In this document: positions 2,797 to 64,000 of the stretch, piece by piece
Layout of the letters: each line of letters opens with the position of its first letter
How positions within the stretch are numbered: the stretch's first letter is position 1
DNA from: Kutzneria kofuensis
GTDB lineage: Bacteria; Actinomycetota; Actinomycetes; Mycobacteriales; Pseudonocardiaceae
Reading direction: 5' to 3'
Length of the DNA stretch: 64,000 nucleotides
Assembly: GCF_014203355.1 (NCBI RefSeq)
Contig: NZ_JACHIR010000001.1
Coordinates: 4,218,038 to 4,282,037, forward strand
Translations under genes and position numbers: made by a program
The notes under the pieces: model-generated
What the model saw: only the letters and a program-made list of their open reading frames with translations
The model's database searches: none
What the model was told of the DNA's origin: nothing

Positions 2797-3132
2797 TTAG
2801 GCGGCGTGGTTGCAGGTGGAACAAGTGCAGTCGGCGCAGGCGCAGTTGGCGCACGAGTCGGTGCAGTTACCGCACTGGCAGCTCGCGTGGTTGCACGTGG
2901 CGCAGGTGCAGTCCGCGCACCGGCAGTTCGCGCAGGAGTCCGCGCAGTTGGCGCAGGCGCACGTGGAGCACTCGTCGTAGTGCACGCCGTCGCCCGCGTT
3001 GTGCTCGCGGTGCACGTGGCCGTCGTGCAGGTAGTCCACATGGTCGGCGTGCAGCACCGCCTCGTGCCCGCACCCCGGTCCGTGGGTGTGTCTGTGCAGC
3101 TCAGCGGGCCTGTGTTCGGTCACGGCGGTCAT
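2797..3132 (-). CDS. His/Cys-rich metallothionein-like protein with two tandem 9-Cys repeats
   Basis: A 111-residue protein. The first ~53 residues hold 12 His and one Cys in short spacing (HRHTHGPGCGH, HDGHVHREH), like a small His-rich family seen in actinomycetes. The rest has 19 Cys. Residues 58-84 and 85-111 are a tandem repeat of 27 residues with 21 identities; each copy has nine Cys at repeat positions 1, 3, 6, 10, 13, 15, 18, 20 and 23 and one His, and no aromatics. This spacing fits thiolate metal clusters, so zinc, copper or cadmium binding is likely but not proven. Start ATG 3132 has only a weak ribosome site. It is divergent from the SDR gene. Confidence 0.75.
   Translation of the reverse strand: MTAVTEHRPAELHRHTHGPGCGHEAVLHADHVDYLHDGHVHREHNAGDGVHYDECSTCACANCADSCANCRCADCTCATCNHASCQCGNCTDSCANCACADCTCSTCNHAA
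2800..2961 (-). repeat. 81-base tandem repeat, two copies, inside the metallothionein-like gene
   Basis: Copy one is 2881-2961 and copy two 2800-2880. They encode the two 27-residue Cys units. The period is exactly 27 codons, which suggests duplication of a whole metal-binding module. Confidence 0.8.
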
Positions 3133-3210
3133 ATTCCGATGCTCATATGCGCACCCGTGCACGTCCATCCGAAGCGCGGCCGTTCGCTCGAACGAGTTAG
3201 CTTGGGGATC

Positions 3211-61546: not shown

Positions 61547-62293
61547 GTGGCGGTCCCGAAGCCAGCCGCGATCAAGGAACCGTGCAGTAAGGCCAGACTG
61601 ACCTTTGCTGCTAACTCTGATGATATTCGCAACTACTACCACATTCATCAAGCCTTGAAGTCGGCAAAAGCAACTCGACAACAGCTGGTAACCTTTGATA
61701 AGGCAATGTACGTCCTTGTGGCGGCCTTATGGGAATCGTATTGTGAAGACGTCATCTCGGAAGCGCTGGATCTTCTGGCAAAACACGCATATAGTCCGGC
61801 GGACTTGCCGCTAACGCTTCAAAAAGTAATTGCGAGTGATCTGCGAAGTGATAAGCATGAGCTTGCGGTCTGGAAGATTGCCGGCGATGGGTGGAAGGAT
61901 TGCCTGAGGCAGCGCCTTGACTCCTTGAGAGGGCCGCGCGAGTGGTTATTCAATTCGCCTAAGAGTTCGAGTGTTGACGATTTGTTTGCTAGATCGCTCG
62001 GCATTGAACGCATATCGGACAGTTGGCGAGTCAATGATCTGAGCGTGGAAGAGGTGCGGAAGGCTCTGGATCGGTGTATCGCTATTCGTGGTGCGATTGC
62101 TCATCGCGCAGGAACGGCGGACAGTCAGGCTTCTAAGATTGGCGTGAAACGATTTATCAATCTGGTCATTTCTCTTGTCAGATCGACGGACATGGCGATA
62201 GAAAACGTCATCAGGAGCTGTACGGAATTGTCTGGCTGGCAAAATATCGGTAATCAATCAAAGCTGGAAATGGGGTCAATCGCCGCTATTTAA
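61547..62293 (+). CDS. HEPN-domain protein (RiboL-PSP/MAE_28990-like), probable RNase
   Basis: 248 residues, helical. MYVLVAALWESYCEDVISEAL in the first third and RGAIAH (R-x4-H) in the last third are the two marks of this HEPN group; the R-x4-H motif is the RNase active site in characterised HEPN toxins. GTG 61547 has GGAGG upstream. Codon use is far more A/T-rich than in the rest of the window, so it was probably acquired. HEPN proteins serve in toxin-antitoxin and phage-defence systems; no clear antitoxin lies beside it. Confidence 0.75.
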   Translation: MAVPKPAAIKEPCSKARLTFAANSDDIRNYYHIHQALKSAKATRQQLVTFDKAMYVLVAALWESYCEDVISEALDLLAKHAYSPADLPLTLQKVIASDLRSDKHELAVWKIAGDGWKDCLRQRLDSLRGPREWLFNSPKSSSVDDLFARSLGIERISDSWRVNDLSVEEVRKALDRCIAIRGAIAHRAGTADSQASKIGVKRFINLVISLVRSTDMAIENVIRSCTELSGWQNIGNQSKLEMGSIAAI

Positions 62294-62945
62294 CGCCCTT
62301 TGGGTGCGGATCGCTCGATGATAGGTGAGCTGGCGTACCTGATTGTGTTGCGAACGATCGTCGGACCTAGTCGTGGCTTGGAACACGCCGAATTCGCGCG
62401 ATCGGCGTTCGGTCCGACTGGCGTACAGAGTTGGGCCAGTCGGCTCATGCGCCACCTGTCGCTGCTAGTGGCGCGCGTCTCAGCCCGCGAAGCTCGCAAC
62501 CTGACAGGTTCGAGGTCTGACTTGCCATTGTCTCCTGACACCTTCCGCCACTCCACATAGCCTGGGACATTCGCGAACAATAATGTCCACTGTGGACGGT
62601 TGCTAGCCGTTGTTTGCCATCGTTGATGAGGGAAAAGTGCGGATGAGATCCACATTGTCCGCACACAACCGCGCGCCGAGTGGCCTTCGGGGCAGTCGCC
62701 GTCACGACTGCCCTCACCACATCGAACACACAATCGAACCCGGGCCTTGTTACAGTTGCACGCCACCTGTTACGCTCGGTCACCAAGGTTATGGCGAGAG
62801 GGTTGCTGATACTCCATACAGGTGGTCTACCTGCCGTGCAAGCGTAACGCTATCCGCTGTTCGCCGACGGTAACTATCGGAGCAGGCTCGGCCAGAGTGC
62901 AGTTGGTTGGACCACAAGATCCGCGCAAGCGAGACGTGGGGTGTC
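62294..62945. other. Region without supported genes between HEPN gene and HicA-like gene
   Basis: 652 bases. Open frames at 62300-62560 (+) and 62290-62766 (-) lack ribosome sites and known motifs. It holds two operator-like palindromes, GTCCACTGTGGAC (62585-62597) and AGCGTAACGCT (62841-62851), and two TGTTAC words near 62750-62775. Confidence 0.5.
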
Positions 62946-63188
62946 GTGACCAGGTGGCATCAGAACAAGACGATCAACGCTGCCATCCAGGAGCTGGTTG
63001 ACGCAGGCTGGACAGTGGTTGAGCAGGGGCACCGATACCGCATGTGGTGCCCCTGCAACGAGATGTGGATCCGCGTGGACGGCACGCCAAAGAACCCTGA
63101 AGGGCACGCCAGACGCATGCTCCGGGAGGCTGCACGGTGCCCCGACCGTCACGACCTCAGCGGTCAACCGAACAGGCGTAACACCTGA
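62946..63188 (+). CDS. Small HicA-like protein, probable toxin
   Basis: 80 residues from GTG 62946 (a TTG start at 62907 is possible). The core GWTVVEQGHRYRMWCPC, then WIRVDGTPKNPEGHARRMLRE, has the strand-strand-helix shape and GxxH.....CPC pattern of HicA-type mRNA-interferase relatives. The fold assignment is inference. The next gene, 59 bases on, encodes an HTH protein, as in hicAB-like toxin-antitoxin pairs. Ribosome site weak. Confidence 0.55.
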   Translation: MTRWHQNKTINAAIQELVDAGWTVVEQGHRYRMWCPCNEMWIRVDGTPKNPEGHARRMLREAARCPDRHDLSGQPNRRNT

Positions 63189-63191
63189 TGG

Positions 63192-63211
63192 CTGTTTCGC
63201 GTTAGAAACAG
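63192..63211. promoter_or_regulatory. Dyad CTGTTTC-N6-GAAACAG before the HTH gene
   Basis: Perfect 7-base arms (63192-63198, 63205-63211) in the 59-base gap between the HicA-like and HTH genes. A likely binding site for the HTH product. Confidence 0.5.
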
Positions 63212-63247
63212 TGATGGTAACTTGGTGCCTGACGGAAGGTGGGGGTC

Positions 63248-63883
63248 ATGACTGAGTTTGAGTTGATCTTTGCCGTGGACCAGCTGACCGACGACGCCAT
63301 CGACGCGATCTACGACAGGTACGACGCGCTAGTGGCGGGTCACGGCGACATGACGCTACTTACCGTGACCGCCGAGGGTCCAACACCTGTCGCGGCCGGC
63401 AAGACGGCCGTTCGCGATCTAGAACTATTAGCAGGCGTCATAGTGCAGCGCTGTTATGAAGACTTGGTCAACCGGAAAGACATCGCCGAGCGGTGCAATG
63501 TCTCTCCCCAGGCGGTCGGCCTGTGGATACGTGGTGATCGACAGCGTAAGCATCCGTTCCCTCAGCCATTTAACCTTGTCGGCGGAGGGGTTTGGCTATG
63601 GGGAGAAGTAAACGAATGGCTCCGACGGACCTATAAGCCGCAAGATGATGTTCACTACCCATGTCGCGACGACTATGCGGAAATAAATCGTTGGATAGCA
63701 GAACATCGTGCCCAAAAGAGGATGCTCCACGTCGATTTCAGCTGGTCGTCACAGACGCAAGTAGCAGCAGGAGCCGTTGCGGCAATACCGCCTCACATTG
63801 AACGCCCTAATGAGACACCCTTTGAGCCAGGTGGCGACTGGGTGACAATTGAGCGCAGAACCGAGAGAGTGGGCTACAGGTGA
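63248..63883 (+). CDS. HTH DNA-binding protein, probable antitoxin/autoregulator
   Basis: 211 residues. N-terminal 75 residues (FELIFAVDQLTDDAIDAIYD) form a small alpha/beta part. The HTH follows: NRKDIAERCNVSPQAVGLWI (about 84-103) and then FNLVGGGVWLWGEVNEWLR, as in AlpA/excisionase-like regulators that use a winged helix. ATG 63248 has GGAAGG upstream. The next gene overlaps its stop by four bases. It probably represses the HicA-like operon through the dyad before it. Confidence 0.75.
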   Translation: MTEFELIFAVDQLTDDAIDAIYDRYDALVAGHGDMTLLTVTAEGPTPVAAGKTAVRDLELLAGVIVQRCYEDLVNRKDIAERCNVSPQAVGLWIRGDRQRKHPFPQPFNLVGGGVWLWGEVNEWLRRTYKPQDDVHYPCRDDYAEINRWIAEHRAQKRMLHVDFSWSSQTQVAAGAVAAIPPHIERPNETPFEPGGDWVTIERRTERVGYR

Positions 63884-64000
63884 GCGTGGCGCCGGCTGTC
63901 GAAGAACTACTTAAGTCAGCAGCGCTCGACAAGGTCGAATACTATCAGATTTCGGCCCGGGCGCTAGACAAGACAACACCCAGCCGTGCGGAGCCATCGG
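63880..64000 (+). CDS. Partial gene at the window end, third member of the HTH operon
   Basis: GTG 63880 overlaps the HTH gene's stop by four bases (GTGA), so it is probably translationally coupled. The 40 visible residues (MSVAPAVEELLKSAALDKVE...) are helical and polar and match no family known to me. The frame is open to the window edge. Confidence 0.55.
   Translation, partial: MSVAPAVEELLKSAALDKVEYYQISARALDKTTPSRAEPS

Follow-up and report, generated by a model that had tools for sequence, protein, structure and literature searches.

A His- and Cys-rich actinobacterial metallothionein-like protein and its candidate control by SmtB-type zinc sensors

We describe a His/Cys-rich, metallothionein-like protein of 111 amino acids encoded on the reverse strand, at positions 2797–3132 (stop codon at 2797–2799), of a 64,000-nucleotide stretch of Kutzneria kofuensis DNA, hereafter referred to as the window. 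The open reading frame is a real, conserved gene for which homologues were found, and the family to which it belongs is spread across the Pseudonocardiaceae and other actinobacterial groups. As best explained by the sequence and by the gene neighbourhoods of its relatives, the product would be a zinc metallothionein switched by an SmtB-type zinc-sensing repressor, a reading to which we assign a probability of roughly 0.64. To our knowledge, few families of bacterial metallothioneins are known.

Architecture, conservation and distribution of the protein

The coordinates, strand and length of the reading frame are those given by the sequence-only reading, and a recount returned the same 20 Cys and 14 His per 111 residues. 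The Cys occupy positions 21, 55, 58, 60, 63, 67, 70, 72, 75, 77, 80, 85, 87, 90, 94, 97, 99, 102, 104 and 107. Residues 1–55 (positions 2968–3132, reverse strand) form a His-rich head of the pattern HxHTHGPxCGH...H..HVDY.H..H.H..H...HYDEC, which is homologous to single and tandem actinobacterial His modules; C21 and C55 were assigned to this head because the related modules retain the first Cys and terminate in YDEC or YDEH. Two nine-Cys units follow on the same strand, defined by their Cys spacing and comprising residues 58–84 (2881–2961) and residues 85–111 (2800–2880). The spacing is identical in the two units (2-3-4-3-2-3-2-3, Cys 58–80 versus Cys 85–107), 21 of 27 positions are identical between them, and residues 55–111 are devoid of F, W and Y. 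The Cys map thereby confirms what had been read from the letters alone, namely two 27-residue units with nine Cys each, equally spaced, in a tail free of aromatic residues. The protein shows the characteristics by which metallothioneins are classed, being small and Cys-rich, with CxC/CxxC motifs and few aromatics. Its AlphaFold model, with a mean pLDDT of 49.5, was unusable, also for judging the presence of a GATA-type zinc-finger fold. Elsewhere in the window, the GC content drops from about 70% to 57% at positions 62001–64000.

Full-length homologues at 64–95% identity were found in eight of the 59 other genomes covered by the search among relatives. A scan of a peptide catalogue added further members from Pseudonocardia and the Dermabacteraceae and identified a relative at 91% identity as Kutzneria sp. 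CA-103260, and no second copy was detected in the own genome (next best match, E 0.287). All 20 Cys are invariant across an alignment of 14 sequences (A1; the window protein and 13 others at 64–95% identity), in which the tail Cys are as invariant as the His of the head; a second alignment (A2) holds 12 of these 14 tails, and a third (A3) 32 of 35 proteins. The Cys tail, for which the sequence-only reading had allowed that homologues might expose a frame artefact, is retained by these homologues, all 20 Cys of the protein being kept in the alignment. Comparison of the window gene with its 95% relative L044 gave dN/dS values of 0.008/0.189 for the head and 0.050/0.288 for the tail, and comparison with L045 gave 0.036/0.485 and 0.060/0.370, respectively. 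The pair L110–L117 showed a high tail ratio (0.061/0.091), which counts against purifying selection between the Cys, and the constraint at these positions is therefore regarded as loose.

A model of the tail matched 44 of 390 Pseudonocardiaceae genomes (own genome included), 14 of 394 genomes of the class (13 of them new, the remaining one being the own genome) and 3 of 296 genomes of the phylum (two already counted, one new), the class and phylum searches being even samples. Together, these searches amount to 58 actinobacterial genomes with a single match per genome (44 + 13 + 1), to which two Dermabacteraceae catalogue records are additional. The proteins of 57 of these 58 genomes, the exception being that of G265, were read or matched by script: 55 consist of the head and two Cys units, and two of the head and a single unit, which settles for the actinobacteria how many copies of the 27-residue unit are carried, a count that the earlier reading had proposed. 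The one-unit forms are L107, whose genome is 73% complete, and L164, which belongs to a different class of the phylum. In the latter (G836:C2, plus strand, frame from 1288), the head and one nine-Cys unit are encoded behind an ArsR gene, and this form, situated outside the window's class, is possibly the ancestral one. Minor variation was seen in L112 and L134, which have an extra Cys in the second unit, and in L103 and L104, which have 21 Cys. No tail devoid of a head was encountered among the 57 proteins, one of the pattern-matching scripts itself requiring the head. Beyond the actinobacteria, coverage was restricted to the peptide catalogue scan and to plasmid and phage searches. Carriage by such elements was considered and rejected, as the 14 plasmid and two phage records retrieved match the head part alone and none covers 80% of the query.

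The head itself is not new, since single and tandem His modules are present in many actinobacteria. These small His-rich proteins share the head module with the window protein, whereas they have a second His module, or nothing, where the window protein has its Cys tail. Four of the 14 plasmid records label the His module 'zinc transporter permease', a name that is implausible because the proteins have 51–52 residues (two annotated short His-rich proteins, of 51 and 52 amino acids); the very short His-rich proteins so named (H3, H5, H7 and H8) look like a propagated misannotation. Among L017–L030, the 14 loci of head type in the search among relatives, ArsR-like matches occur in L026, L027 and L029, Zur-like matches in L025 and L026, L31B-like matches in L023 and L030, and a ZnuB-like match in L025; given these neighbours, the entire head family appears to be connected with zinc. 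A Zur box was detected upstream of head-only genes in none of 11 loci, using a pattern that had no positive control.

Metal-sensor and zinc-uptake genes in the neighbourhood

An ArsR/SmtB homologue is encoded within the stretch read at 33 of 54 loci. In 13 of them (12 plus L164), arsR is located directly upstream on the same strand, and nine of the 12 such loci (L164 standing outside this count) show an ATGA-type stop/start overlap between arsR and the metallothionein gene; at four loci (L039, L041, L122 and L132), the ArsR gene is adjacent and convergent. In addition, an smtB–zur pair lies near the gene at 16 Pseudonocardiaceae loci, and 15 loci have, close to the gene, a class II tRNA synthetase that was judged by eye to be of glycyl type, one copy matching Pfam tRNA-synt_2b. 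An ArsR gene is absent from the 3–16 kb read at 21 of the 54 loci, including the window and the same-genus loci L044–L046, and the smtB–zur pair of the own genome is found at C1:2052780, away from the window locus. All five ArsR proteins that were tested match Pfam HTH_5 above cut-off. Moreover, both sensors that were set against solved structures show an ungapped alignment to SmtB (1r1t) in which the D, H, H and E residues of alpha5 (D-x-H...H-x-x-E), the zinc ligands of SmtB, are conserved. At L051 and five more loci (six in total), the gene has a neighbour encoding a DUF1980 membrane protein that contains a His-rich stretch.

The zinc linkage in the relatives is strong. The designation of the window protein as metallothionein-like, already put forward from the letters alone, is supported at the sequence level by the invariant Cys and His and, in the relatives, by the linkage to zinc-sensor and zinc-uptake genes.

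These observations are consistent with a model in which, at low cytosolic zinc, a dimeric SmtB-type repressor would occupy an element upstream of the gene and block transcription, the conserved core within the spacer and −10 region of the promoter being its presumed seat. Excess zinc, and perhaps also Cd, Co or Ni, would fill the alpha5 site of the sensor, upon which the repressor would leave and the protein would be made. Each nine-Cys unit may fold round a cluster of about 3–4 Zn(II), and the His-rich head may contribute weaker, faster-exchanging sites through which these clusters are loaded and unloaded. Among Micrococcales-type relatives, one operon would usually encode both the sensor and the metallothionein; in the window genome, where the gene lies apart from smtB–zur, the regulator would act in trans. 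AzuR, an alpha5 SmtB-type sensor of Anabaena, controls the metallothionein NmtA in trans from a distant locus (PMC8790569), which provides a precedent for such control, and SmtB governs zinc export in mycobacteria (PMC7174638).

Two loci point to a different use of zinc. At L101, the gene order is znuA-type, ABC ATPase-like, ABC-3 permease, arsR, metallothionein gene and, 10 nt on, a FUR-type gene; an L31-like gene is located nearby. At L105, the order is znuA-type, ABC ATPase-like, ABC-3 permease, metallothionein gene and FUR-type gene, ArsR being absent and the ABC-3 permease gene stopping approximately 20 nt before the metallothionein gene; the ABC ATPase was recognised by eye in both cases. 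The arrangement at L105 suggests that the gene is expressed alongside zinc uptake and not in response to surplus zinc, and the protein could then be a zinc reserve or handling protein, controlled by Zur and made with the uptake system during zinc shortage, a possibility with which L101 and the L31-like genes found at L041 and L042 also agree. However, ZnuA-/ZnuB-like genes were seen within the stretch read at only two of the 54 loci, namely L101 and L105, as opposed to ArsR genes in 33 of 54, and at L101 arsR stands directly in front of the gene. We consider this explanation unlikely, though better placed than any other alternative; because of these two zinc-uptake loci, we place the zinc-excess reading at 0.64 instead of 0.70.

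The protein might also serve chiefly against thiophilic toxic metals (Cd, Pb, Hg, Cu) instead of in zinc homeostasis, which we judge to be somewhat less likely still. Cys clusters bind Cd, Pb, Hg and Cu tightly. The sensor AzuR responds not to zinc alone but also to Cd, Pb and Cu, its release being described for Zn, Cd, Cu, Co, Ni, Pb and Mn (PMC8790569); alpha5 sensors can thus answer other metals, which counts against a zinc-only reading. The linkage observed here is nevertheless to SmtB-type alpha5 sensors and zur, and no exporter or reductase for toxic metals was recognised among the recurring neighbour clusters, which were mostly judged by eye.

The occurrence of the His head without a Cys tail, single or in tandem, would fit a donor of nickel/cobalt or zinc whose working part is the head, the tail serving only as a metal reserve, and NmtR-like sensors detect Ni/Co through alpha5. 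Such a role appears improbable to us, as the tail Cys are no less invariant than the head His and no Ni enzyme or Ni transporter was recognised among the same, mostly eye-judged, recurring neighbour clusters. Still further down, a role as a thiol redox buffer, with zinc set free upon oxidative or nitrosative stress, would draw on the twenty Cys and on the known reaction of metallothioneins with oxidants, yet the genes to which the family is linked encode metal sensors, which makes this role very improbable. Finally, a frame artefact of high-GC DNA, to which the open frame upstream of the start codon might have pointed, has a negligible chance of being correct and was ruled out by homologues from several families, invariant Cys and dN values far below dS.

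A conserved element upstream of the gene

A candidate composite promoter-operator is located at positions 3139–3167 on the reverse strand of the window, with two mismatches to the pattern TTGACAT-N11-YATATNANNAT. It comprises a −35-like hexamer (3167–3162), a 17-bp spacer and a −10-like GAGCAT (3144–3139). A gap of 6 nt separates the element from the start codon, which makes a leaderless or near-leaderless transcript likely.

The core of the element, TGCGCATATGAGCAT (3139–3153, reverse strand), is conserved in relatives. Its pattern, TGCGCATATNANNAT, was searched in 35 of the 58 genomes and has a single occurrence in each of 18 and none in the remaining 17, with zero reversed controls; by coordinates, no copy is situated more than about 250 nt upstream of the metallothionein gene. 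Allowing one mismatch, the own genome contains five sites versus five reversed controls, which is no excess, so that no wider regulon is visible; the core is also absent before the own-genome smtB–zur pair. By eye, conservation reaches the −35-like TTGACAT, the 17-bp spacer and the −10-like NANNAT.

Using the composite pattern, which was derived partly from the same sequences on which it was scored, an element with at most three mismatches was detected upstream of 24 of 52 loci, while every other 603-nt same-strand window of those loci has at least four mismatches. In 19 loci, the element begins 27–78 nt before the metallothionein gene, the start codon being taken as the nearest ATG by script, such that the distances may err by a few codons. 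In five operon loci (L042, L095, L097, L100 and L102), it is instead found 325–349 nt before the metallothionein gene, in front of arsR. The element thus tracks the transcription unit, which is the behaviour expected of an operator-promoter. The remaining 28 of the 52 upstream regions have at least four mismatches (11 with four, 17 with five or more), and seven of the 12 arsR-operon loci have no element at three mismatches or fewer. L131, a pattern failure, was read separately and stands outside the 52-locus counts.

The sequence-only reading had drawn attention to a CATAT-N10-ATATG dyad at the start codon and had likened it to ArsR/SmtB operators. This dyad is present at positions 3130–3149 and is the sole match in the window (zero in 100 shuffles), and its left arm falls inside the conserved element; the arm containing the start codon, however, is not retained in the two closest homologues, L044 and L045 reading ACATG there. 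From an operator of the alpha5 group, an imperfect inverted repeat of the 12-2-12 type would be expected. The proposal of ArsR/SmtB-type control appears good in substance, the candidate composite promoter-operator taking the place of the dyad, although the conserved site differs from it and overlaps its left arm only. For comparison, SmtB of Mycobacterium smegmatis binds the zitA promoter, at a site described as not yet identified (PMC7174638).

Relation to known metallothioneins and implications

Neither Pfam nor NCBIfam contains a model that matches any of 32 members, PHROGs returned no known family for the window protein, and the best PDB match was not significant (E 0.27). The PF02069 model (BmtA/SmtA) gave no match in the 32 members at E 0.1 and none above cut-off in any of 43 of the 58 member genomes, four of the 43 having sub-cut-off matches; the Synechococcus elongatus control was positive. 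Four small Cys-rich proteins whose PF02069 matches fall below cut-off (L168, L169, L170 and L171), all of the same bacterial family, are perhaps distantly SmtA-like. With no hit to Pfam or NCBIfam among 32 members and none above cut-off to PF02069 in 43 genomes, the earlier description of the protein as a new type is supported, within a limit set by one in silico survey from 2010. In this survey, Schmidt et al. (J Basic Microbiol 50:562) reportedly predicted actinobacterial metallothioneins and metallohistins, and its title shares the phylum and both residue classes with the present family. As the survey could include it, we do not call the family categorically new. In the open-licence literature, no title or abstract among the matches listed dealt with the His-head/Cys9 family.

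Similar to SmtA/BmtA with SmtB, the window protein is small and rich in Cys and His, and its kind is linked, here in the relatives, to an alpha5-type SmtB/ArsR sensor; SmtA has nine Cys, as does each unit here. In contrast to SmtA/BmtA, the window protein has two tandem Cys units, a separate His head and a tail devoid of aromatics. MymT, the copper metallothionein of mycobacteria, is likewise a small Cys-rich protein of actinobacteria, but is set apart by its description (copper, own motif). The bacterial metallothioneins examined in one report have a GATA-type zinc-finger fold, and the mycobacterial copper metallothionein is described there with a motif of its own (PMC10612145). A possible metallothionein of Frankia, described as having three to four CXXC motifs together with histidines and as linked to chromate resistance (PMC4531530), likewise combines His and Cys in an actinobacterium; compared by description, it differs by the chromate link.

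Taken together, we tentatively propose, at somewhat less than even odds, a new actinobacterial metallothionein family in which a His-rich loading head is combined with duplicated Cys9 clusters, independent of SmtA/BmtA in sequence and governed by the same kind of sensor, and for which TTGACAT-N11-YATATNANNAT may be an SmtB-type operator. The graded anatomy found among actinobacteria, ranging from the His module alone to the module with one and with two Cys9 units, makes the gain of a metal-cluster domain traceable, and the conserved element provides a concrete, testable candidate operator for actinobacterial SmtB-type zinc sensors.
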